DNA of 64,000 nucleotides from Brevibacillus massiliensis (GTDB lineage: Bacteria; Bacillota; Bacilli; Brevibacillales; Brevibacillaceae). Both the position numbers and the translations under genes were made by a program. The stretch spans positions 380,046 to 444,045 of the forward strand of contig NZ_HE978536.1 of NCBI RefSeq assembly GCF_000311785.1. Direction: 5' to 3'. Within the stretch, counting starts at the first letter, position 1. Every line of letters starts with the position of its first letter. The notes under the pieces were generated by a model, which saw only the letters and a list, made by a program, of their open reading frames with translations, was not told where the DNA came from and did not search any database. This document shows, piece by piece, positions 38,337 through 57,684 of the stretch.

Positions 38337-39332
38337 TCAAAAAGCTTGCTGCATCCACCGCTGCATCCGCATGTAGCGGTCCAGATCTTTTTCCAGGCGG
38401 CGAACGGCATACAGTTCAGACCATTCCCTGGCGTGCCGGTAATACAGTTCGAGGTCGCCCATGATTCGTTCGGGAAAAGAGAGGAAGACCATCAACAGAT
38501 TCACTTCCTCCGGCCGCCAGGGGAAAACCGCCTGATACGCTGAAAACAGTTCGGACGCTGTCGTCCCTTCCCCTCCCAAGTGAAAATACGCCCGGTAAAA
38601 CTTGCTGACGTCACGGGCTGGGGTATCGAAAACAGCACGGTCAAAATTGATGAACTGAACATTTCCGGAAGAATCAAGCAGCGTGTGGGCCGGATATGGC
38701 GCCCCGTGAACCAGGCTCAAGCGAAAGTGGGCATACGTGCGGTGCTGCTCCCCCCACCGACGCAAGGAGGAGATCGCTGTGGTCGCGGCTTCCGTGAGAT
38801 ACGCCTGGTTCGCCAGGAAGACGGTGTCGAAGGGGGAAGGGTAGCTGCGGGCCCTGGCAATCGCGGCGTTCTTCTCCATCAGCCCGAGCCATTTTTCCCA
38901 GCGGGCCAGCAAGGAATCTACCAACGGATCTACTTGACGGGGATCGTCGAAGCGATAATTTTGCGTCAAATGGTGAAGTTCAGCTAAACGAACCAGGGTG
39001 GCCCTCCCCCAGACGGGGATTTGCTCTTCGCCAATCGCCGCGGATGGCCGCCACCCGGTAAGGTAGTAGTACTGTTCGTCTCTTTGGACGTACGGTTCGT
39101 CGTACTTGGTGTACGCAAGCGGAACAGCTCCGTCCCATCCGCGCTGCTGCAAGTTGCGCAGCAGCCCTGCGACAAACGCCAAACGTCCCGGCGAAGCCGA
39201 GGTTCGCTTGCATACGTACGATCCGTACGGAGTCATCACTTTGTACACATTGGGCGCCTTTAACACGTCGATCGTCTGGGCGAACATGTCGTATTCAGGA
39301 AACAAGGGGTAGATATCGTCAAATCGGCTCAT
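38337..39332 (-). CDS. CotS-family spore coat protein, degenerate kinase fold
   Basis: 331 residues of the CotS/YutH/YsxE family, related to aminoglycoside and choline kinases. The fold markers are present: an N-lobe lysine in YGSYVCKRT, then LRNLQQRGW and LAELHHLT. The catalytic loop reads LVHGAPYPAHTLL where active kinases have HGDxxxxN: the aspartate is Ala and the asparagine is His. The metal-binding segment reads FINFDRA. It is therefore probably a non-catalytic coat or morphogenesis protein. Its ATG overlaps the ysxE stop (ATGA), so the two are coupled. Confidence 0.85.
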   Translation of the reverse strand: MSRFDDIYPLFPEYDMFAQTIDVLKAPNVYKVMTPYGSYVCKRTSASPGRLAFVAGLLRNLQQRGWDGAVPLAYTKYDEPYVQRDEQYYYLTGWRPSAAIGEEQIPVWGRATLVRLAELHHLTQNYRFDDPRQVDPLVDSLLARWEKWLGLMEKNAAIARARSYPSPFDTVFLANQAYLTEAATTAISSLRRWGEQHRTYAHFRLSLVHGAPYPAHTLLDSSGNVQFINFDRAVFDTPARDVSKFYRAYFHLGGEGTTASELFSAYQAVFPWRPEEVNLLMVFLSFPERIMGDLELYYRHAREWSELYAVRRLEKDLDRYMRMQRWMQQAF

Positions 39333-40336
39333 ACGCCACGACCTCTTCGCGCGTCTTCCGCTCGCCGGGCGATGTGGGCAAGCAGTTCATCGACGGATTG
39401 CTGCTGCCGGATGGACTCGGCTATCAGGGCTATGTCGCAATCCTCCCGCTGCCCTGCCGAAGCGGCATGGACATACTGGTGCAATGCCTGCCACAGCTCT
39501 TGCGGCGGAACCATGAACGCGAGCAGCAATCGGTAATCGGAGTACGTGAGCGGCTTTACCGCCTCATATCCGTCCAAAAAGGCGTCAATCCGGTCCCGTT
39601 CTGCCCCCTCCCCGCCAAGCAGCAAATCTCGCAAAAAATGTGCCGTATCCCGCTGCTGAACCGAGAGAGAGGGACTGTAAAAGCCGCGCAGAAAAACGCG
39701 CTCCTTCATGATCCCGAGGTTCCCCCGATCCATGAAACGGTGTGACACTGCCAGTTCCGTCTCGTCGAACGATTCCGGCGAGAGCAGCCTTACGCCGCGT
39801 CCCATCCTCTCCAAAAGCGGTCTGAATTGGCTGGCAACCCATTTGTCTTCGGGCTGCCACAACCGGGAACGGCTGGTAAAGGAATCGTGAAGGTTGCGAA
39901 CCCGCTCTGTTTCGGCCGCAATCAGGGCCTGTTCCCGGTTTAACAGGTCTACTGCAGCCGGGGAAGATTGGCTGCTCTGCGCCAGATGCATCGAAGCGAC
40001 CAACTGTCCGCAAAGTTTCGCCTGCTCCACCGTCGGCGTCAGCGGGGTCCAGGAGCGTACATGATCGGTCAAGGTGTATCCCTTTCTGCCAGATACGACA
40101 TACGGTTTGGCGTCGCGGGTTCGAATAAATCGTTCCACATCGCGAAATCCCTGCCTGGCAAGCTGCTCCCTCCACATAAAGGACCAGCGCAGCACATCCA
40201 CCCGCGGCCAAACCCGCAGTTCCTTCGGGCCGCGATTGGTTTCCAACAGATAGAAATCCTCCTGCGGCTGGATGCGGATCACCCGCATGCGGTATCGCTG
40301 GCAAATCCGGTTCAACTCTCTTTCGTCACGTAGCAC
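39329..40336 (-). CDS. ysxE: YsxE-like spore coat protein
   Basis: 335 residues, CotS-like kinase fold. In B. subtilis ysxE follows spoVID directly, as here, and the family belongs to the spore coat. The N-terminal part carries RGPKELRVWPR in the place of the ATP-binding lysine strand. The would-be catalytic loop is SHRFMDRGNLGIM, also changed from the HGD...N pattern. The GTG at 40336 follows GGAG by nine bases. It lies 17 bp after spoVID and overlaps the second CotS-like gene by 4 bp. Confidence 0.85.
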   Translation of the reverse strand: MLRDERELNRICQRYRMRVIRIQPQEDFYLLETNRGPKELRVWPRVDVLRWSFMWREQLARQGFRDVERFIRTRDAKPYVVSGRKGYTLTDHVRSWTPLTPTVEQAKLCGQLVASMHLAQSSQSSPAAVDLLNREQALIAAETERVRNLHDSFTSRSRLWQPEDKWVASQFRPLLERMGRGVRLLSPESFDETELAVSHRFMDRGNLGIMKERVFLRGFYSPSLSVQQRDTAHFLRDLLLGGEGAERDRIDAFLDGYEAVKPLTYSDYRLLLAFMVPPQELWQALHQYVHAASAGQREDCDIALIAESIRQQQSVDELLAHIARRAEDARRGRGV

Positions 40337-44250: not shown

Positions 44251-45808
44251 TCTCCGTCGTTGTTCCTGCCTGCAATGAAGCGGCTACCATCGCCGAAGTG
44301 ATTCACTCCTGCAAACAGCTGGTCCCCATGAGATCATCGTCGTCGCAAACGGCTGTACCGACGAGACTGCAGAGATCGCCCGCCAGAGCGGCGGATGCAT
44401 CGTGATCGAAGAAGAGAAGCCGCTCGGAAACGACGTGGGGCGGGCCGTCGGCGCGGCAGCTGCCACCGGTGACATCCTGCTCTTTATCGATGCCGATTTT
44501 GCGATTGCCCCCAAAAGTTTGCAGCGTTTTCTGGAACCGATCCGGTACGGTCACGCCGATGTGGTGCTAAATGATCTGGATGCCCTCTTCACCGCCAACC
44601 AGCGGCCGCACTCCGCCACCGTCTGGCGACAGGTGTTGAACGAACTGATCGGACGCAGTGATCTAAAGATCGATTCTGTGCTGTCAGTTCCCCATGCGAT
44701 CACCAGAAAGGCGGTTCGAACAATAGGCGTAGAGGCCCTGGCTGATCCGATCGTCGCCCATCTGCGGCTGGTCCAAGCGGGATTTCGCATCGCCCACGGC
44801 TATGCGATCGACGTGATCACCCCGAATCGGTTTCGCCCCGATGAGCACGGCCGGTGTGATCACACCCTGCCGCGCGCCGAGAAGCGGATGGCGGGCGATC
44901 ACCTGGCGGCGCTGGCGGAATTTTTAACCACACCGCGCGGAGGATTCACCGACGGTAACAGGCAAAGAGACATCATCCAGCAGATTGACACAGGCAGCCG
45001 GCCTATTCCGGTTGCATCGCCTGGTTGGGGTGTTCAGTCGTCTCTGTACGGCGGGCAGGACCTGTCCGTGATCATCCCCGCGCAAAACGAAGCAGCCGCC
45101 ATTGGAGAAGTGATCCGCCAAGCGCGAAAAATCGAGCCGAAAGAAATCGTCGTCGTGGTCAACGGCTCCGGGGATGCGACAGCTCGGATTGCCGCAGAGC
45201 TCGGGGCAAAAACGATTCTGTTTGAAGAAGCCTTGGGCAACGACGTGGGCCGGGCCGTCGGCGCAAAGGCGGCGGTTGGCGATATTTTGCTCTTCATCGA
45301 CGGGGACTTCGCGATCCCTCCAGCCGATCTCTACCCGTTTGCCGCTTTTGTCGCCCAAGGAGTGGATGTCGCTTTGAACGACTTGAACTACTACCTGGAC
45401 CTGCGCTTCCCGCTGCATATCGTGACAGCGTGCAAGTACGCGGTAAACCTGGCTCTGGATCGCCAGGATGTCGGGGCCGGCTCGATGATTGCCGTACCTC
45501 ATGCAATCAGCCGCCGCGCTCTTCGGCACATCGGCTGGGAGATGCTGCTCTCGCCCGTTGCGGCACAGGTCATGGCCGCCTTGTCCGGATGCTCTGTTCG
45601 CTGTGTTCATCGCGTCGAGGCGGATCGGCTCAACCGCATTCGTCCAGACCAGCACTTTGCAGCCGTGGGCTACCCCCCTGCCGTAGAGCGGATCCTTGGC
45701 GATCACCTGGAAGGGCTGTACTGCCTGCTGCAGGCGAGGGGGCCAAGAGGCGGTCTGTACGACGGCAATCGGGCCAGGAACAAATTGAAAGGGCTGAACC
45801 TGAAGTAG
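44247..45808 (+). pseudogene. Tandem family 2 glycosyltransferase, frameshifted near the start
   Basis: Two homologous GT2-like domains in one reading unit. The first (44247 to about 45010) starts at a TTG overlapping the epimerase stop, after GGAGGGG: LISVVVPACNEAATIAEVI. At the C4 run 44324-44327 one base is missing. Adding one C restores PHEIIVVANGCTDETAEIA without a gap against the second domain, PKEIVVVVNGSGDATARIA. After the shift the frame is open to 45808. Both domains share LGNDVGRAVGA and DILLFIDxDFAI. As read, the first part is cut off and translation could restart at GTG 44402. It may be a sequencing error, a real mutation or programmed slippage. Confidence 0.75.
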
Positions 45809-45842: not shown

Positions 45843-47144
45843 CTACGATCTGTTGACCGCCTTTTCCATCGCCTTGTAGCTGGCGTCAATCGTCCGCTCA
45901 ATATCCTCCTCTGTATGGGCGAGCGAGACAAACATTCCCTCAAACTGGGACGGCGGCAGCATGATGCCTTCTGCCAGCATGTTGTGGAAGTAAGCGGAGA
46001 ACAGCTTTACATCCGCCTTTTTTGCCGTTTCGTAGTTGATCACCGGCGTGTCGGTAAAGAAGAGACAGACCATCGAACCGACGCGGTTTACCGTATGGGC
46101 GATCCCCAGTTTGCGGGCATTGTCGCCAAGCCCTTCGGCCAGGCGGGCAGAGCGCGCTTCCAGCTGTTCGTAAGCGCCGGGTTTGCCGAGCTCCTGCAGC
46201 GTGGCAAGTCCGGCCGCCATCGCCAAGGGATTCCCGGAAAGCGTTCCCGCTTGGTAGATCGGGCCTGCCGGAGCGATTTGCTCCATGATCTCCCGCCTGC
46301 CGCCGTACGCTCCAACCGGCAAGCCGCCGCCGATCACTTTTCCCATCGTCGTCAAGTCCGGCTTGATCCCGTACAGCTCCTGCGCTCCGCCGCGGGCGAC
46401 GCGGAAACCGGTCATCACTTCGTCAAAGATCAGCAGTGCGCCGTAGGACTGGGTGATTTCCCTGAGCCCCGGCAAAAACTCCGGAAGCGGAGGAACGACG
46501 CCCATGTTGCCGCCGACCGGTTCGACGATCACGGCAGCGATTTCCCGGCCGAACTGTTCAAATGCCAGCCGCACGCTGTCGAGATCGTTGTACGGCACCG
46601 TTATCGTGTTCTCTGCCGTTTTCTGCGGGACACCGGGGCTGTCCGGCAGTCCCAGCGTAGCCACGCCGGAACCCGCCTTGATCAAAAGACTGTCGGCGTG
46701 GCCGTGGTAGCAGCCCTCAAACTTCATGATTTTGTCCCGCTTGGTATACCCGCGGGCCAGCCGCAGCGCGCTCATCGTCGCCTCCGTACCGGAGTTGACC
46801 ATGCGGACTACTTCGACTGACGGCACGATTTCACAGACCAGCTTTGCCATTTCCGTCTCCCGCTCCGTCGGCGCTCCAAAGCTGGTTCCAAGCACAGCCG
46901 CCTCCTGGATCGCAGCCAAAACGCGCGGGTGCGAGTGCCCGAGGATCAGCGGGCCCCAGGAGCCGATGTAATCGATATACGTATTTCCGTCGACATCCGT
47001 CATCCTGGAGCCTTCCCCTTTGTGAATAAACACAGGCGTTCCGCCGACGCTGCCAAACGCGCGGACGGGACTGTTTACTCCACCCGGTATGTACTGCCTT
47101 GCTTCGGCAAAAAGCCGCTTCGAATTCTCTACATTGGTATTCAT
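45843..47144 (-). CDS. hemL: Glutamate-1-semialdehyde 2,1-aminomutase
   Basis: PLP enzyme that forms 5-aminolevulinate from glutamate-1-semialdehyde. 433 residues. [32 protein letters not shown] near the N-terminus; [15 protein letters not shown]; the aspartate that holds the PLP ring nitrogen in [12 protein letters not shown]; and the PLP lysine in [18 protein letters not shown] (around 265). The ATG at 47144 ([10 protein letters not shown]) follows GAGGTGG; the 28-codon longer frame runs into the terminator. It is separated from the rest of the hem operon by a strong terminator at 47201-47234. Confidence 0.97.
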
Positions 47145-47246: not shown

Positions 47247-48299
47247 TTACAAGCCGAGGCGCTCTGCCACTTCTGCTTCCCACTCGTAGATTTCCGGCGT
47301 GAAGTAAGAGACGCGGGTCTTTTTGTATTCCTTGGTCGAGTACAAGGTAATCCGATCGGTAATACCCGTCTCGTCTTCGATCGCCTGCAGAATCGATTCG
47401 CACTCTTCCAGATCCCGTCCGTGCACCATCGTAAAGATGTTGTACTTCCAATCCGGATAGGTCGGGCGCAGATAGCAGTGGCTGACAGCGCGGAACGACC
47501 CCATCTTCAGGCCGATTTCGTCCGTTTTCTCCGCCGGTACGTTCCAGACGCCCATTCCGTTGGCCCTGAAACCTGCTTTGCGATGGTTCAGCACGGCAGA
47601 GAAGCGGCGCATTTTTCCGGCGTCAATCAGTTTTTGGGCGTGGGCAAACAGCTCGTCAGGAGTCATGTTGATGTTCTCTGCCCACGCGTCAAACGGCCGC
47701 TTGATAAACGGCAGGTCCTTTTGCAATTCGAGGATGACGGCAATATCCTGATCGGTTACGGGAATCTGCATCGCCGCCTGGCGCATCTCCTCGCTGTAGG
47801 TCGGAGCCGCTTTGTCGGCTGCTGCCGCTTCTTTTTTCACATCGAGCTGGACGCCGATTTTAAACAGTTTCAAGGTGGGCAGTATGCGGATCGATTCCAC
47901 TTCCGCCAGCTCGCCGAGGATGTCTACCGTCTTTTCCAAGCCGTACCGGCTGTTCGGAGGGACGGCGATTGTAAACCAGAGGTTAAAGTCGTGGTTGCGT
48001 TTGTAGTTGTGGGTGATGCCGGGATGCTGGTTGAACACCTTCGCCCGTTCATCAAGCTTCTCCGGTGCGATGCGGGCGGCAACCAGGCTGGATTTGTAAC
48101 CGAGCGCCTTGGTGTCAAAGATCGCCGATGTCTGCCGGATCGTGTCTCCCTTCATTTTGCGCAGACGTTCAAGCAAAATGTCCTCCGTCGTGCCGATCTG
48201 TTCGGCGATCACCTTGAACGGCTCGGCGACAAGCGGAATCTCTCTCTGTACCACATCGAGAATCTCACGATCCAACGCATCCATTACATCAACTGACAT
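47247..48299 (-). CDS. Fused AhbA/AhbB-type siroheme decarboxylase (Lrp/AsnC-like)
   Basis: 350 residues made of two homologous halves, about 1-155 and 170-350, each a winged-helix segment plus an Lrp-like ligand domain. Half 1: LDREILDVVQREIPLV and RNHDFNLWFTIAVP. Half 2: MRRFSAVLNHRKAGFRANGMGVW and YPDWKYNIFTMVHGR. These are the signatures of AhbA/AhbB and NirDLGH, which remove two acetate carboxyls from siroheme on the way to heme d1 or heme by the alternative path. Often mislabelled as an AsnC regulator. It lies 1 bp after hemB in an operon that also has SUMT and a precorrin-2 dehydrogenase. Activity is inferred from family and context. Confidence 0.82.
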   Translation of the reverse strand: MSVDVMDALDREILDVVQREIPLVAEPFKVIAEQIGTTEDILLERLRKMKGDTIRQTSAIFDTKALGYKSSLVAARIAPEKLDERAKVFNQHPGITHNYKRNHDFNLWFTIAVPPNSRYGLEKTVDILGELAEVESIRILPTLKLFKIGVQLDVKKEAAAADKAAPTYSEEMRQAAMQIPVTDQDIAVILELQKDLPFIKRPFDAWAENINMTPDELFAHAQKLIDAGKMRRFSAVLNHRKAGFRANGMGVWNVPAEKTDEIGLKMGSFRAVSHCYLRPTYPDWKYNIFTMVHGRDLEECESILQAIEDETGITDRITLYSTKEYKKTRVSYFTPEIYEWEAEVAERLGL

Positions 48300-48300
48300 C

Positions 48301-49284
48301 TTACTTCCCTCCTTGCAGCCAACCGGCCACGTCTTTGGCGTGATACGTAATGATGATATCCGCTCCGGCCCGCTTAAAGCCCGTCATCATTTCCATCACA
48401 ATCTTCTCTTCGTCGATCCAGCCCTTTTCGGCGGCTGCTTTGACCATCGAGTACTCGCCGCTGACGTTGTAGACGACGAGCGGCAGGTCAAAGCTTTCCT
48501 TCAGACGGTGCACCATGTCGAGGTAAGCGAGCCCCGGTTTTACCATCAGGAAGTCGGCCCCCTCCATGACGTCTGACGCCGCCTCGCGCAGCCCTTCGCG
48601 GGCATTGGCCGGATCCATCTGATACGTCTTGCGGTCCCCCGACTTCGGCGACGAATGGGCGGCATCGCGGAACGGTCCGTAGAACGAGGAAGCGTACTTC
48701 ACGGCGTACGACATGATCGGAACATGAACCATTCCGGCCTCGTCCAGCGCTTCGCGGATCGCTGCCACGAAGCCGTCCATCATGTTGGACGGCGCAATGA
48801 TATCAGCACCGGCCTTGGCCTGGGAGACAGCCGTCTTCGCGAGCAGGGTCAAGGATTCGTCGTTGTCGATCTGACCGTCTTCTGTCAGCACGCCGCAGTG
48901 GCCGTGGTCGGTAAACTGGCACAAGCAGTTGTCGGCGGCAACGATCATATCCGGATAGTCGGCTTTGATCTGGCGAATCGCCCGCTGCACGATCCCCGTG
49001 TCAGAGTACGCCTCCGACCCGCAGGCGTCTTTGTGGCCAGGGACGCCAAACAGCATCACAGACGGAATGCCAAGAGCGGCCACCTCCGCCATTTCGTCTT
49101 TCAGCCGATCCAGCGAGAAGTGGAAGACTCCCGGCATCGACGGGATCTCCTCCTTGATGTTCTCCCCTTCGACGACGAATAGCGGATACATCAAATCTTC
49201 CGTCCGTACATAGTGCTCGCGGACGAGACTTCGCATTCCCTGACTGGTGCGCAGCCGGCGATGGCGATCAAACTGTATAGCCAT
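48301..49284 (-). CDS. hemB: Delta-aminolevulinic acid dehydratase
   Basis: Condenses two 5-aminolevulinate molecules to porphobilinogen. 327 residues from the ATG at 49284 ([12 protein letters not shown]), after GGGGGGAG. The zinc cluster [14 protein letters not shown] is intact, so the enzyme is of the zinc-dependent class. The two active-site lysines lie in [21 protein letters not shown] and [12 protein letters not shown]. The frame extends far upstream but overlaps the cobA-hemD start region without family support. Located 19 bp after cobA-hemD. Confidence 0.97.
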
Positions 49285-49303
49285 ATTCTCTCCCCCCAAA
49301 CGG

Positions 49304-50830
49304 TTAACAGGTTGTTTCTTCTCGGTTTTGCAGGACAGCGTCAAGCAGTCCTTGAATCGTGTACTCCTTGGCGATGACGTGTACAGGCAGGCCCAAATCT
49401 TTTGCCGTCCCCGCCGTGATCGGACCGATGCAAGCGATTTGAACCCCTTCAAGCAGTCGGGTCAGGTCGTGTCCGGCCATGGCCTGCACAAAGTTTTTCA
49501 CTGTGGACGAACTGGTGAAAGTGATCAGCTGGATCGCCTTCTCTTCCAGCAGTTGCGCCGTTTCCGCTGCATTCTCCGCATCTATCACTGTATCATAAGT
49601 ATCGGCTTCCGTCACTTCCAGCCCCAGCTTCCGCAGCTCGCGCGGCAGCGTCTCGCGAGCGATGTCTGCACGCGGCAGCAGCACCTTTTCGCCCGGTTTC
49701 AACTCGCCCTGCAGACTCTCCAGCAGTCCTTCGGCGGTAAAATCGCCCGGCAGCACGGCGACTGTCAGTCCCCGCTCGCGGAGCGCTTCCGCCGTCTTGG
49801 GACCGACCGCCGCCAATTTTCCCGAAAGCGTGCGAATGTCGATGCCCAGCTCGCGCATCCTTTGGAAGAAAAAGGATACTCCGTTCACGCTGGTAAACAT
49901 CACCCAGTCGTACGATCCCAGGTTGGACAGTGCCTCGTCAAGCGGCCTGCTCTCTTTGGGCGACACCATTTTAATCAGCGGAAACTCGTACGCCTCTCCG
50001 CCCAGCTCGACGATCTTTTCGCTCAATTCACTCGCTTGGCTGCGGGCGCGCGTCACCAGCACACGCTTGCCGAACAGCGGCTTTTTCTCAAACCACTGCA
50101 GCTTGTCGCGCAAGCGGACGACCTCGCCGACGATGATGATCGCCGGATTCGTCAGATTGGCCGCTTCGCGCTTCTCGACGATGTCCTCCAGGGTGCCGAC
50201 CAGCGTCTCCTGATCGACAGTCGTGCCCCAGCGGATCAGGGCCACAGGAGTCTTCGGCGAGCGGCCGTACTTGATCAGCTGCTCCCGGATGAACGGCAGG
50301 TTGCCGACGCCCATGTAAAAAATAATCGTCTCGACAGCGGTAGCCAGTTTCTCCCAATTGATGCTCGACTCCGTCTTGTCCGGCCGCTCATGGCCGGTGA
50401 CGATGGCGAAAGAAGAATTGAAATCGCGGTGGGTGACGGGAATCCCGGCGTACGCCGGGGCGGCGATTCCGGAAGTAATCCCCGGCACGATCTCATAGGG
50501 GATGTCGTGTTTGACCAGTTCTTCCGCCTCTTCGCCGACACGGCCGAAGACGGACGGGTCGCCCCCTTTTAGCCGCGTCACCACTTTTCCTTCCCGGGCT
50601 TTCTCGACCAGTACCCGGTTGATCTCTTCCTGTGTCAAGGTGTGCCGGTCGGGAAGCTTGCCGCAGTAGATCAGTTCAACGTCCGGCTTGGCATGGGAGA
50701 GCAGCTGGGGACTAGCCAACCGGTCGTAAACGATACAGTCAGCCATCCGAATTGCTTCCAATCCGCGAACCGTGATCAACTTGGGATCCCCGGGACCGGC
50801 TCCGACCAAAAATACTTTGCTTCTGCTCAT
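49304..50830 (-). CDS. cobA-hemD: Uroporphyrinogen-III C-methyltransferase / uroporphyrinogen-III synthase fusion
   Basis: 508 residues with two enzymes. Residues 1-245 are a SUMT methylase ([63 protein letters not shown]), which makes precorrin-2. Residues 255-505 are HemD ([54 protein letters not shown]), which closes hydroxymethylbilane to uroporphyrinogen III. One chain thus makes the last common precursor and diverts it to siroheme. It overlaps hemC by 4 bp. Fusion of these two genes is known in Firmicutes and others. Confidence 0.95.
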
Positions 50831-51774
50831 CGCTGATTCTCCTCCCTCACCTTTGCCAGCACGTCGCCTGCACCGCTTGCCAGCAGCCGCTCGGCCACCT
50901 GCGATCCCAATGCCGCCGGGTCGCTGCCGGCCAGCGTCTCTTTGTATACCTGCCTGCCTGAGGGATCGGCCACCAGGCCGGTCAAGCGGATCAGCGGCCC
51001 GCCGCCCTCGGCATGCCCCTCTTCCACTGTCGCGTACCCGCCGATTGGCACCTGGCAGCTGCCCTGCAGCTTATTCAGCAGCTCTCTCTCCGCGGTCACT
51101 GCCAGCCGGGTGGGCTCGTGATCAAGGCGGGACAACAGCGCCAGCAGTTCTTCGTCGTCCTCGCGGCATTCAATGGCAAGCGCCCCCTGGCCAACGGCGG
51201 GGAGACTGATCTCGACCGGGAGGAACTGATCGACCGTCCCTTCCCAGCTGACCCGCGCCAGTCCGGCGGCTGCCAGCACGATGGCGTCAAAATTGCCTTC
51301 CCGCAGCTTTCGCATGCGGGTGTCGATGTTGCCGCGAATCGGCTCGATGGAGAGGTCCGGACGGTAAGCGAGCAGCTGGGCGGCCCGCCGCAAACTGCTT
51401 GTCCCGACCAGCGCCCCCTGCGGCAATTCGTCCAGCGTTTTGCCTTCCTTGGACAGAAGCACGTCCCTGGGGTCGACACGCACCGGAACGGCCCCGATCA
51501 CAAGTCCGGGCGGCAGTTCCGACGGCATGTCTTTCATGCTGTGGACAGCCATGTCGGTTGCTTTATCCAGCAGCGACTGTTCGATTTCCTTTACGAACAA
51601 ACCCTTGCCGCCTACCTTGGACAACGTGACGTCCAGGATGACATCCCCTTTGGTCACGATCTCATGTATCTCAAAAGAATAGCCAGGCTCAAGCTTCCTT
51701 AGCTGATCGATCACCCAGTTGGTCTGGGTCAATGCCAGCATGCTTTTACGCGAACCTACTTTCCACTGTCTCAT
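50827..51774 (-). CDS. hemC: Porphobilinogen deaminase (hydroxymethylbilane synthase)
   Basis: Polymerises four porphobilinogens. 315 residues. N-terminus [21 protein letters not shown]; catalytic aspartate in [13 protein letters not shown]; the cofactor-attachment cysteine in [14 protein letters not shown] (around 245). The ATG at 51774 follows GGGAGG and lies inside the 3' end of sirC (29-bp overlap), so translation is probably coupled. The longer open frame upstream is sirC out of phase. Confidence 0.97.
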
Positions 51775-52423
51775 CGTTGCCTCCCTGCGCCCCGCCCGTC
51801 TTGCGCCGCTCGAGCAAGGCTTCTGCCATCTGATTTTGTTGTTCCTCGGACGCGTGTAAAAACGCGTCGTCAAGCAGCTGTTGAAAAAGCTGCCTTCTCT
51901 CTTCGGGATTCTCCACCTCTGCGAGCACCCGCTGTCTCATCTGTGCGAGAAAGTCGAGATACCGCTCGTACTCCGGGCCAAACTCCTGCTCGATCTTCTG
52001 CTTGATCTTTCTTGCCAGGGCGGGACTGGCTCCCGATGTAGAAACGGAGATGACCAGCTTCCCGCGATGCACCGAAGACGGGACGATAAAGTTGCACAAG
52101 TCGGGCCGATCGACGATGTTGATCCAGCCCCGGTTGGCTGCCACTGCCTGGTAGACGGCCAGATTCACCTCCGGTTGATCGGTCGCCGCCACAACCAGGT
52201 CATAGCCGCTTACATCGTGGCCGCCAAAAGGCTCCTTGCGCCAACGGACCTTACCGCAAGCAACCATGTCCGCAAGGCCGGGATGCACCTCGGGCGCGAT
52301 CAGGGTGACATTCGCGCCCGCCGCAGCCAGCGAACCTGCTTTGCGCAGGGCAACTCCACCGCCGCCGACCACCAGGCAGTCCCGCCCTGTCAGATCGATC
52401 ATCAAAGGATACTGATTTTTCAT
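51746..52423 (-). CDS. Precorrin-2 dehydrogenase / siroheme synthase N-domain protein
   Basis: 225 residues of the SirC/Met8 family: oxidises precorrin-2 to sirohydrochlorin with NAD+, and in some members also inserts iron. The NAD motif is [15 protein letters not shown] near the N-terminus; [40 protein letters not shown] carries the catalytic aspartate region. The helical C-terminal part is present, so it could be bifunctional. It sits between hemX and hemC, which ties siroheme synthesis to the main hem operon. Confidence 0.93.
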
Positions 52424-52437
52424 AGCTGCTCACCTCT

Positions 52438-53259
52438 TCAATACATCCAGCGGTGGAAGTTGGAAAAGACATCGGTAAAAACAAAATTTAAGAGTAGAAT
52501 AACAAATGCGACGAGATTTCCCCAAGCCAGTTTGCGTCCCAGCCAGTCCTCGGTAAACCGTCTGTACAGCAAAACGGAGTAGGCAAGCAGCACCAGGAGC
52601 GACATCCAGACTTTTGCGTCCGTCCAGAACCCCCCTGTTTCCACCAACTGGGCCCAAATCGCCCCCAGCAGCAGCGCCAGCAAGAGGAGCGGCACCCCGA
52701 CCATATTGGTGAAGTACGAGAAGAGCTCCAGCTTATCCAAGCTGGGCAGCCGCCTGAGGAGAGGCGTCCAGCGCTTCTGCTTCAGCAGCTTGTTTTGCAG
52801 GAGGTACAGCACCGACAGAATCATCGACAGCGCGAAAGCGGCGTAGCTGAACATGGCCAGCGTGACGTGGATAAACAGCAGCTCGGAAATCACTTTGGAA
52901 TGGGCAGCGCTCGACGTTTCCGGAAAGAACATGGATGCTGTCAATACGACAAAGCCAATCACATTGAGAAAAAATATCAGCAAATCGACGCGGAAAAAGT
53001 AATTGATTGCCAAGGAAACGGTTACCAGTATCCACGAATAAAAAAAGAGCGTCTCAAACAGGGTCAGCACCGGAAAGTAAGGTTTCGCCGCCATTTGCGA
53101 AACAAAGAACACGGTTTGCAGCGCCCAAACGACAGCAAGCAACCCGAAAGCGATGCGGTTCGCTTTCCGGTTGCTCAGCAAGAAGTCGTTAAAGTAGAAG
53201 AGAACGCTCGCTGCGTAGAGAAAGATCGTCAGATCGTAGATCCATCTCGCTTCCGCCAT
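52438..53259 (-). CDS. hemX: HemX-like CcsA-type membrane protein
   Basis: 273 residues with about eight membrane segments. Belongs to the cytochrome c assembly (CcsA/CcmC) fold; in B. subtilis HemX lowers the amount of glutamyl-tRNA reductase. The pattern FSYAAFALSMILSVLYLLQ matches the family core, but the tryptophan-rich WWD motif of true CcsA/CcmC proteins is not visible, so heme export is doubtful. ATG following AGGAGG. It lies directly after hemA (22 bp), the conserved Bacillus order. Confidence 0.9.
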   Translation of the reverse strand: MAEARWIYDLTIFLYAASVLFYFNDFLLSNRKANRIAFGLLAVVWALQTVFFVSQMAAKPYFPVLTLFETLFFYSWILVTVSLAINYFFRVDLLIFFLNVIGFVVLTASMFFPETSSAAHSKVISELLFIHVTLAMFSYAAFALSMILSVLYLLQNKLLKQKRWTPLLRRLPSLDKLELFSYFTNMVGVPLLLLALLLGAIWAQLVETGGFWTDAKVWMSLLVLLAYSVLLYRRFTEDWLGRKLAWGNLVAFVILLLNFVFTDVFSNFHRWMY

Positions 53260-53281: not shown

Positions 53282-54646
53282 CTAAAACTGTTTGCCCGTT
53301 TGCGTCGCCAACCCATTTTCACGCCCTGCAGCTTGTTTTTTTCTCTCTTCCCATGCCGCCTCTTGTTCACGGCGTTCCATAATCTCTTCCAGCGCAAAAA
53401 TCGAGGAGAAAATCTCGAAGACCTCGTCTGCGCGTTTTTGAACCGCCAGTTCCTTCAGGCGAACCATCGGCGAATGCAGCAGCTGGTTGATGATGCCCCG
53501 AGTGTGTTTGCGAATGATGTGAAGCTCCTGCTCGGTCAAGCCGGGAAGCTTATTCTCGATTTTGCGCATCGCATCGCTGTGAATGTCCAACGCCTTTTCC
53601 CGCAGCGCCGAGATCAGCGGCACTACACCCAGCGTCTGGAACCAGCTCTTGAAGGCGACCATTTCCTCGCCGATCATCGCTTCAATCCGCACCGCCTCCT
53701 TGGACCGCTCCTCCAGGTTGCTGGCGACGATGCCTTCCAAATCGTCGATGTCGTAGAGGAAAACGTTGTCCAGTTCGTGCAGTCCCGGGTCCAAGTCCCG
53801 CGGCACGGCGATGTCGATCATAAACAGCGGGCGCTGCTTCCGCTGCTTCATAATCGGCTTCAACTGTTCCTTGGTCACAACGTAACCGCTGGCCCCGGTA
53901 GAGCTGATCACGATATCGGCCGACAGGAGCAAATCCGGCAGTTGATCCAGCCTGCACGCCTGTCCGTGGAATTTCTCCGCCAGCTGGGCAGCCCGCTCCA
54001 GCGTCCGATTGGCGACGCGGACACGCGACACGCCGTTGCTGTGCAGATGTTTGGCTGCCAGCTCGCTCATCTTGCCGGCGCCAATGATCAGGACTTCCTT
54101 GCCCTGGAAGGACCCGAAAATCTTTTTGCCGAGTTCAATCGCTGCGTAGCTGACAGATACCGCGTTTTGGCCGATCGCCGTCTCGGTGTGGGCGCGTTTG
54201 GCCAGGGTGACGGCCTGTTTAAACAGCGTGTTGAACACGGTTCCGGTCGTGCCGTTCTGCTGGGCCAGAAGAAAAGCGTCTCGCACCTGCCCCAAAATTT
54301 GCGTCTCGCCCATCACCATGGAGTCGAGTCCGCAGGTAACCCGGAACAGATGCTCTATCGCTTCATCGTTTTCCTTTATATACAAATGCGGCTGGATTGC
54401 TTCTTTGTCGACGCCAAACCATTCCGCCAAAAAATTGCGCGTGTAAAAACGGCCTGTGTGCAGCTGATCGCAGATAACGTAAATTTCCGTGCGATTACAG
54501 GTGCCGAGAATGACACTTTCCACCACGCTTTTCGTCTGGGAGAGGAGATGCAAAGCCCGTGGTGTACTGTCGTCATTGAAGGTAAATTTTTCCCGAATTT
54601 CAACAGGCGCCGTTTTGTAGTTAAGGCCTAAGAGCAGAATTTCCAT
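53282..54646 (-). CDS. hemA: Glutamyl-tRNA reductase
   Basis: First committed enzyme of the C5 pathway to tetrapyrroles. 454 residues. The catalytic cysteine lies in LGTCNRTEIYVI (around residue 50); the NADPH fold is VLIIGAGKMSELAAKHL; ISSTGASGYVV and FMIDIAVPRDLDP follow; the helical dimerisation domain is C-terminal. The ATG at 54646 (MEILLLGLNYKTAP) has GGGAGG seven bases upstream; the 101-codon extension is out of family and spans the promoter. First gene of the hem operon. Its level is probably limited by HemX and by heme. Confidence 0.97.
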   Translation of the reverse strand: MEILLLGLNYKTAPVEIREKFTFNDDSTPRALHLLSQTKSVVESVILGTCNRTEIYVICDQLHTGRFYTRNFLAEWFGVDKEAIQPHLYIKENDEAIEHLFRVTCGLDSMVMGETQILGQVRDAFLLAQQNGTTGTVFNTLFKQAVTLAKRAHTETAIGQNAVSVSYAAIELGKKIFGSFQGKEVLIIGAGKMSELAAKHLHSNGVSRVRVANRTLERAAQLAEKFHGQACRLDQLPDLLLSADIVISSTGASGYVVTKEQLKPIMKQRKQRPLFMIDIAVPRDLDPGLHELDNVFLYDIDDLEGIVASNLEERSKEAVRIEAMIGEEMVAFKSWFQTLGVVPLISALREKALDIHSDAMRKIENKLPGLTEQELHIIRKHTRGIINQLLHSPMVRLKELAVQKRADEVFEIFSSIFALEEIMERREQEAAWEERKKQAAGRENGLATQTGKQF

Positions 54647-56403: not shown

Positions 56404-57684
56404 TTAATAATCGTATCGCACAGTAATAGAGTGATCGGCATCGGCCTCAACATCTATCCCCGAGTAAAAATTTACAGTGTGGTCAATATCAATTGCAGCA
56501 TATGAACCGGTGGATGCCCACGCAGTAACGAACTCATAATCGTACTGATCAGACTCCAATTGGTTGTCTCTAACTATCCATTTAGCATAATCATAGGTCT
56601 TATTTAATGTAAGATCAATATCAGGTTCTGAATCAAGTGTATAGGTATACGATATATTAAATGGGAAACTTAAACTAATACTATAAGGGTTAGAGGATGT
56701 GTCATTTGGAGAAGCATCATCAAGTTGGTCACCATCAAAGGGAAGATCGTGTTTGACACTGAATCTTTCTGCATCCCAACTCCATGAATACGTTTCGATT
56801 GTGCTTGTATCTTTAACATAGAAGAAATCGTAGTCGGAATCAGATTCATCGGTAACTTTATAAAGTTTCCACTGTGAATTTATCGATCCTACTTTGTCGT
56901 TTAAATAATATGCATTGGCTATGATATCATATTCGCTATCAACAATTTTGGCTGAGGCCAATGACATATTTGACTTTTCAATATCTTTGTTTTCATGTTC
57001 TAAGATTTCCTTCAAATAAATTTCATCGGTTAAATCGATCTTTCCCTTATCATCGTAATTATTAATATCAGAAATAAACACTTTATAGGAAGCATCTTTA
57101 TCTAGAGTGTAACCAATGATTTCATGTATATTATCGCTAATATTGTATGATCCTTCCTTCTCTTTCAATTTCTTTTTTTCTTTCTTACTGTCATGGAAGG
57201 AAACTTTAATCGTTTCTTTTGAATCACTGCTTTCTATTTTAGAATATATGTTTTCTATTCCTAATAGTTCACAGTATTCTTCAACAGTAAGACCACCATA
57301 TAAGAATACCTTTTTACCATCAGAAAGAGCGGTTTGTAGAGATTCTTGTAATTTTTTGTCTCCTTTAACATCTTTATAGTTATAGGCGATTGAATTAAAT
57401 TCAGATACATCTTCTTTTTCCTCAGGATGAATAGATTTTATTATGATTTTTTTATCTTTTAATGCCTGTTTAACATTATCAAATGCACCATTATCGGACC
57501 AGAAATCTAAATTTTCTAAATTATTCCGGGATGCAAATAGCAGTTCCTTGGATTCGGATTTTGCAAGTACACTTTTTGACTGTAAATTAATGGAGTAAGG
57601 AGAAAGTGTAATTGCTGACGTAAGTATTCCAACCAATGCCACTCGACAAATGTTTTGCTCGAAAAATGAAAATTTTTTGAGCAT
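56404..57684 (-). CDS. Secreted protein of unknown function, AT-rich gene
   Basis: 426 residues. Signal peptide at about 1-41 (NICRVALVGILTSAITLSPYS, with cleavage likely after VLAKS or nearby). Then a Lys/Asp/Glu-rich region (about 45-240) and a beta-rich, Asp/Ser/Tyr-rich C-terminal domain (about 290-426) with alternating patterns such as YSISLSFPFNISYTYTLD and HSITVRYDY. One internal cysteine (VEEYCELLG); no catalytic motif recognised. The gene is far richer in A and T than its neighbours, with AAA/GAT/TTT-type codons, so recent transfer is likely. Good AAGGAGG before the ATG, and a TTTACA-17-TATATT promoter. Host-interaction or bacteriocin-like roles are only guesses. Confidence 0.85.
   Translation of the reverse strand: MLKKFSFFEQNICRVALVGILTSAITLSPYSINLQSKSVLAKSESKELLFASRNNLENLDFWSDNGAFDNVKQALKDKKIIIKSIHPEEKEDVSEFNSIAYNYKDVKGDKKLQESLQTALSDGKKVFLYGGLTVEEYCELLGIENIYSKIESSDSKETIKVSFHDSKKEKKKLKEKEGSYNISDNIHEIIGYTLDKDASYKVFISDINNYDDKGKIDLTDEIYLKEILEHENKDIEKSNMSLASAKIVDSEYDIIANAYYLNDKVGSINSQWKLYKVTDESDSDYDFFYVKDTSTIETYSWSWDAERFSVKHDLPFDGDQLDDASPNDTSSNPYSISLSFPFNISYTYTLDSEPDIDLTLNKTYDYAKWIVRDNQLESDQYDYEFVTAWASTGSYAAIDIDHTVNFYSGIDVEADADHSITVRYDY

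Follow-up and report, generated by a model that had tools for sequence, protein, structure and literature searches.

A fused siroheme decarboxylase in the hem operon of Brevibacillus massiliensis and a candidate route from siroheme to heme in air

Introduction

Why would the main hem operon of Brevibacillus massiliensis carry a gene for a siroheme decarboxylase-like protein? The gene, called AHB here, occupies positions 47247–48299 (minus strand) of a 64,000-nucleotide stretch of contig NZ_HE978536.1 (assembly GCF_000311785.1), which we refer to as the window. A reading of this DNA from its sequence (the original prediction) had described the product as a two-domain relative of AhbA and AhbB and had offered three roles for it: a siroheme-derived heme route, heme d1 synthesis, or control of heme flow by a catalytically reduced relative. 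Since radical S-adenosylmethionine (SAM) proteins catalyse its last two steps, the siroheme route to heme has been described as anaerobic. Our analysis makes it quite probable that heme is made from siroheme in this organism, with AHB working as the siroheme decarboxylase and coproheme decarboxylase (ChdC) as the last enzyme.

AHB is a fusion of AhbA-like and AhbB-like halves with both active-site motifs

The 350-residue open reading frame (ORF) is real; the original prediction had named no strand for it. Residues 10–154 of AHB match the AhbA model NF040708 (263.9 bits, cut-off 140) and residues 188–332 the AhbB model NF040707 (243.7 bits, cut-off 125), PF17805 and PF22451 of Pfam are each found in two stretches, and LrpA/AsnC models score weakly. 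The two homologous Lrp-like halves that had been proposed share 26% identity over 103 columns (E 8e-10), and the AhbA/AhbB signatures quoted for them are found in the product. Each half has an HXYXR motif, HNYKR at residues 97–101 and HCYLR at residues 274–278, and both are kept in most AHB homologues. In D. desulfuricans AhbA/B this motif lines the active site, where His115 of AhbA coordinates iron and Arg102 of AhbB is proposed to be catalytic (PMC4145669). Loss of active-site residues had been named as what would speak against the assignment; HXYXR is intact in both halves of AHB.

The top PDB sequence match of AHB is NirDL of Hydrogenobacter thermophilus (4ch7, E 2.5e-78), and a search of 350,542 chains with an AlphaFold model of AHB (pLDDT 95) ranked 4ch7/4czc first (E 3.5e-32; TMt 0.81 for 4ch7), the fold agreeing along the entire chain. 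NirDL is likewise a one-chain fusion of two Lrp-like halves and the protein closest to AHB in sequence and fold, but it is named for the nir/heme d1 group, whereas the AHB gene sits in a hem operon and its organism lacks NirJ. The identity that had been proposed is supported by family, fold and active-site motif alike, and we predict siroheme decarboxylase activity for AHB. Other matches to the helix-turn-helix (HTH) region of NirDL in the genome (C4 and C11; 163 and 188 aa) proved to be ordinary Lrp/AsnC-type regulators, and plasmid-borne relatives of AHB, at 27–36% identity, are annotated as AsnC/Lrp regulators only.

Both halves of AHB contain an HTH within an Lrp/AsnC fold, and the protein might instead regulate the operon by sensing heme or siroheme, its catalysis being reduced or nil. 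Some AhbA/B proteins bind heme, and a possible DNA-binding state has been discussed (PMC4145669). Against this stand the two intact HXYXR motifs, scores far over the AhbA and AhbB cut-offs but weak ones with LrpA/AsnC models, and a loss of HemE and HemH that follows the presence of AHB. We therefore hold this explanation to be very unlikely, while AHB may have a regulatory side role besides catalysis.

The genome has the means to make siroheme and lacks HemE and HemH

The genome (5.06 Mb, 37 contigs, 98.7% complete) yielded neither HemE nor the ferrochelatase HemH in searches in which the B. subtilis control was positive. AhbC, AhbD and NirJ-type radical SAM proteins were not found in it either, the top match to the AhbC model being a MoaA at 64 bits; weak AhbC-model matches were rejected as MoaA, a SPASM-type protein and another radical SAM protein. 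ChdC is present (NF008913, 391 bits vs a cut-off of 253). Two tandem CbiX-domain (SirB/CbiX-like) proteins are encoded (C1:411122 and C6:194249), so siroheme can be made, and with CobA, SirC and SirB/CbiX the siroheme synthesis set is complete. Because CbiX, AHB and ChdC are present while HemE and ferrochelatase are missing, the genes line up as a single continuous route only with siroheme as the source of heme. Among the three roles first offered, the siroheme-derived heme route is thus the one that gains from the genome: the lack of a NirJ-type protein speaks against heme d1, and the intact, conserved HXYXR motifs speak against a catalytically reduced relative. The absence of AhbC, the standard next enzyme, emerged from these searches and lay beyond the view of the original prediction.

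In the route that we propose, CobA and SirC, encoded in the operon, and SirB/CbiX, encoded elsewhere in the genome, would make siroheme from uroporphyrinogen III, and AHB would decarboxylate the acetates at C12 and C18, producing 12,18-didecarboxysiroheme. Loss of the C2 and C7 acetates would then yield Fe-coproporphyrin III (coproheme), which ChdC, in place of the radical-SAM AhbD, would convert to heme with peroxide. Iron would enter at the sirohydrochlorin stage, so that HemE, CgoX and HemH would not be needed. In known systems radical-SAM AhbC removes the C2 and C7 acetates (PMC3942049, PMC7242693), and E. coli given CysG, AhbAB and AhbC makes Fe-coproporphyrin III, as seen by HPLC (PMC3942049); for the AhbC step a distinct protein of aldo-keto reductase (AKR) fold appears to be the best candidate substitute. 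The enzymatic activities assigned to this organism are predictions from gene content, homology, motifs and co-occurrence, and oxygen-compatible, siroheme-dependent heme synthesis is our best reading of them.

The proposed route resembles several known ones. It shares with the Ahb pathway of Desulfovibrio and Methanosarcina (PMC3942049, PMC4145669) the sequence from siroheme through didecarboxysiroheme and Fe-coproporphyrin III to heme, as well as AhbA/AhbB homology, but the radical SAM proteins AhbC and AhbD of that pathway are absent from the genome and ChdC takes the last step. In the Ahb/ChdC hybrid of Haloferax volcanii (PMC5746218), ChdC can terminate a siroheme route as its aerobic last step, with AhbD as the anaerobic alternative; Haloferax, however, keeps AhbC. 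The coproporphyrin-dependent pathway of most Bacillota likewise has ChdC as its last enzyme and a hem operon of the hemAXCDBL kind, but it uses the HemE and HemH that are absent here, and a related genus of the same family (g2) has HemE and neither AHB nor the AKR.

Since ChdC is the final enzyme of the coproporphyrin pathway, heme could in principle be made by that pathway with unrecognised, non-orthologous replacements for HemE and HemH, leaving AHB to do something else. Two or more enzymes yet to be discovered would then have to exist in several phyla, against one for the siroheme route, and AHB would be left unaccounted for; moreover, HemE and HemH are jointly absent, which fits insertion of iron by SirB. 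We consider this reading very unlikely.

Still less probable, in our view, is a role of AHB like that of NirDLGH in denitrifiers, namely contributing to the synthesis of heme d1 for a cytochrome cd1 nitrite reductase. An AHB homologue does adjoin a NirJ/AhbC-like radical SAM gene and a cytochrome-D1-type propeller gene in another Bacilli genome, G051, which also has HemE. The genome of the window has no NirJ-type protein, its AHB lies in the main hem operon, and heme d1 synthesis would not explain the missing HemE and HemH. The G051 locus itself (L195, 8352–12111) encodes the D1-type propeller, the radical SAM protein, an ABM-domain protein and AHB, with the HemE pathway elsewhere in the genome; because of this clustering, G051 probably makes heme d1.

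AHB and ChdC occur without AhbC in other lineages

We surveyed 30 genomes carrying AHB. HemE over cut-off and HemH were confined to the same two of them, and ChdC was present in 24. AhbC-like proteins were present and ChdC was not found in G023 and G025–G029, which are Dehalococcoidia- and Halanaerobia-type genomes that we take to be those of anaerobes. AHB and ChdC without a known enzyme for the AhbC step also occur in Shimazuella, Hazenella, Solirubrobacter and Nitrosopumilales. In a 2010 survey, Nitrosopumilus maritimus, Sulfolobus acidocaldarius and Haloquadratum had been found to possess ahbA/B homologues but to lack the radical SAM genes, and heme synthesis in them had been called questionable (PMC3004389). 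Our case resembles that of N. maritimus (Storbeck 2010, PMC3004389), with an AhbA/B homologue and no AhbC/AhbD (nirJ1/nirJ2); ChdC, the pattern across Bacilli, Thermoleophilia and Chloroflexi, and a candidate enzyme are added here.

An AKR-fold subfamily is a candidate for the AhbC step

In two Nitrosopumilales loci the genes for AHB, an AKR-fold protein and ChdC form one run, and a Chloroflexi contig has an AKR gene of this kind directly upstream of AHB. A profile built from these three sequences found strong homologues in Brevibacillus, Shimazuella, Hazenella, Tepidibacillus, the Chloroflexi genome G015 and HR19; it gave nothing over the limit in the three tested genomes with AhbC but without ChdC, and no strong match in the Thermoleophilia metagenome-assembled genome G018. 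In HR19 the AKR gene adjoins a cobA-hemD fusion, and two other families of Bacilli have it beside genes for heme-copper oxidases. The genome of the window has two copies (G000 C3:279794–280825 and C1:540740–541762), and no copy was found among 72,556 plasmids.

The subfamily belongs to Aldo_ket_red in Pfam, falls under every NCBIfam cut-off and has a top PDB match of 89 bits. It conserves Tyr58, Lys83, His132 and Asp53 (Glu in Nitrosopumilales), the motifs WWG, K-x-G-Y-D and RVP[HD]ASG, and an invariant DHRxxR, with A[LM]GP[DA]xGW instead of the usual GVSN. An AlphaFold model of the Nitrosopumilales protein from three input sequences was poor (pLDDT 57.6). A divergent homologue in Thermoleophilia (hhalign probability 99.95, E 1.2e-38; L136 1240–2439, L137 1237–2379, L138 1483–2619, L139 1228–2613 and L182 6791–7921) has the motifs GPANGF, NPxEPWPGE and DHRxFRPAGW and has lost the redox lysine.

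We scored co-occurrence of the AKR and AHB in 300 Bacilli genomes, which form a largely separate test because the AKR had been picked for its position next to AHB in archaea and Chloroflexi, although about 9 of the 28 AKR-positive Bacilli genomes fed into the refined profile, A2. Subfamily scores split cleanly into values of at least 507 bits and values of at most 261 bits. The AKR was present in 28 genomes and AHB in 32; all 28 AKR-positive genomes carry AHB, and none of the 268 AHB-negative genomes has the AKR (Fisher p 2e-35, relatedness ignored). By genus, the AKR occurs in 16/20 AHB-positive and 0/97 AHB-negative Bacilli genera (p 2e-16, relatedness again ignored), and within-family contrasts in three families (f1, f8 and f17) all agree with the link.

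HemE was over cut-off in a single one of the 28 AKR-positive genomes. In the HemE tally 2 of 244 matches lay under the curated cut-off; the weakest listed E-values were those of G231 and G034, and the G231 match (1.2e-79) was treated as under it. AhbC-like proteins were found in 16 of the 32 AHB-positive genomes, among them all four without the AKR. Fifteen of the 32 have the AKR only, 12 the AKR and AhbC, 3 AhbC only, 1 the AKR and HemE, and 1 an AhbC-like protein and HemE, so that at least one of the two, the AKR or an AhbC-like protein, is present in each. All 15 AHB-positive genomes lacking both HemE and AhbC carry the AKR.

Based on adjacency in three lineages and near-perfect complementarity with AhbC in one class, we lean towards the AKR-fold family as an oxygen-tolerant, non-radical replacement of AhbC, one that would convert 12,18-didecarboxysiroheme to coproheme by eliminating two acetates. 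The complementarity was scored on preselected families. From standard formulae, this reaction is a loss of two acetic acids (C4H8O4) with zero net redox change. AKRs normally perform NAD(P)H redox, yet the loss of the redox lysine in the Thermoleophilia homologue would fit a chemistry possibly other than NAD(P)H reduction.

The same mismatch between AKR chemistry and a redox-neutral step leaves room for a different assignment, in which the siroheme route is right but another protein, or ChdC itself, performs the AhbC step and the AKR is accessory, serving cofactor reduction, substrate carriage or protection. The co-occurrence analysis, moreover, covered chosen families only. A purely accessory role would not, however, predict that the AKR complements AhbC among the AHB-positive Bacilli tested, and Haloferax has ChdC yet keeps AhbC (PMC5746218), which argues against ChdC doing this step. 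We give the accessory role a real but clearly smaller chance than replacement of AhbC by the AKR.

Several observations weigh against the AKR as the missing enzyme, or against the route as a whole. The activities of AHB and the AKR are predicted from gene data. The Fisher p values are blind to phylogeny, and the within-family contrasts are clean in the three families named above only. Twelve AKR-positive Bacilli genomes also carry an AhbC-like protein, and G113 (the same as G004) and G003 hold the AKR and AHB alongside HemE and HemH, so possession of the AKR does not always go with loss of HemE. Neither AKR copy of the genome of the window lies near heme genes, and Solirubrobacter and its relatives hold only the very divergent homologue without the redox lysine. 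Finally, we know of no precedent for an AKR cutting a C–C bond in a tetrapyrrole.

Radical SAM/SPASM proteins of the AhbD-like TIGR04053 family were also seen in the Bacilli loci (L161 12364–13497 and L162 7052–8146). Their genes lie just past a hemE-hemH-hemY-like run in G004 and beside an AhbC/NirJ1-like gene in B. laterosporus, and the proteins of both are possible anaerobic heme synthases.

Organization and conservation of the hem operon

The operon reads hemA, hemX, sirC, hemC, cobA-hemD fusion, hemB, AHB, hemL, all on the minus strand. The glutamyl-tRNA reductase gene hemA spans 53282–54646 (TIGR01035, 493.7 bits; the ORF runs to 54949, with a likely start at 54646) and is followed by hemX, for a cytochrome-assembly-like membrane protein (52438–53259; PF01578, 99.9 bits), and sirC, for precorrin-2 dehydrogenase (51746–52423; TIGR01470, 171.3 bits, cut-off 62.3). 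The hydroxymethylbilane synthase gene hemC is a mechanical ORF at 50827–51873 (TIGR00212, 358.5 bits) whose true start is probably near 51774. The cobA-hemD fusion (49304–50830; TIGR01469, 318.4 bits; Pfam TP_methylase and HEM4) encodes uroporphyrinogen-III C-methyltransferase and uroporphyrinogen-III synthase; as had been noted, this fusion and sirC are part of the gene run of AHB. Porphobilinogen synthase is encoded by hemB (48301–49284; NF006762, 506.8 bits; ORF 48301–49452, likely start 49284), and the close spacing first reported is correct: the hemB stop codon is at 48301–48303 and the AHB ATG at 48299, 1 bp after hemB. Glutamate-1-semialdehyde aminomutase, the hemL product, is encoded at 45843–47144 (TIGR00713, 659 bits; ORF to 47228, likely start 47144). 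Scanning the operon for promoters and terminators turned up nothing beyond chance.

The hemA-to-hemL order is kept in all Brevibacillus loci compared. Shimazuella, Hazenella and Tepidibacillus keep the order from hemA to AHB, with hemL nearby or a few kb on, and in Solirubrobacter and other Thermoleophilia AHB again lies between hemB and hemL, with Rieske and cytochrome b genes following. At the Thermoleophilia locus L045 (8979–15809), hemB-AHB-hemL is followed by a gene for a protein of about 146 aa without a Pfam match and then by Rieske, cytochrome b and UbiE genes, an arrangement in which heme synthesis adjoins the genes of the cytochrome bc complex.

Convergent with hemL in the window, a plus-strand gene at 44402–45808 encodes a 468-aa protein with two glycosyltransferase-2-like halves in which GNDVGRAVGA is repeated, an internal duplication. 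Three minus-strand ORFs of the window, at 56404–57684, 38337–39332 and 39329–40336, have no Pfam match at 0.001; the last two adjoin spoVID.

Discussion

A siroheme-to-heme route is known in kind; what is possibly new is the AHB/ChdC variant without AhbC, together with a candidate new enzyme. Among CC-licensed papers we found none that connects an AKR with the making of siroheme or heme, which does not prove priority. With somewhat better than even confidence, we propose that the candidate AKR and ChdC would complete an aerobic siroheme-to-heme path in Brevibacillus-group and Shimazuella/Hazenella-type Bacilli and in ammonia-oxidising archaea, with a divergent form in Thermoleophilia.

The presence of AHB and ChdC without HemE, HemH, AhbC and AhbD means that Brevibacillus-type Bacilli, Thermoleophilia and ammonia-oxidising archaea probably run the siroheme route in air. 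This bears on the gap noted in 2010, when Nitrosopumilus was left with the decarboxylase and no next enzyme (PMC3004389). If the assignment of the AKR is true, it would represent a new kind of C–C bond cleavage in tetrapyrrole chemistry, carried out by a family known for carbonyl reduction.
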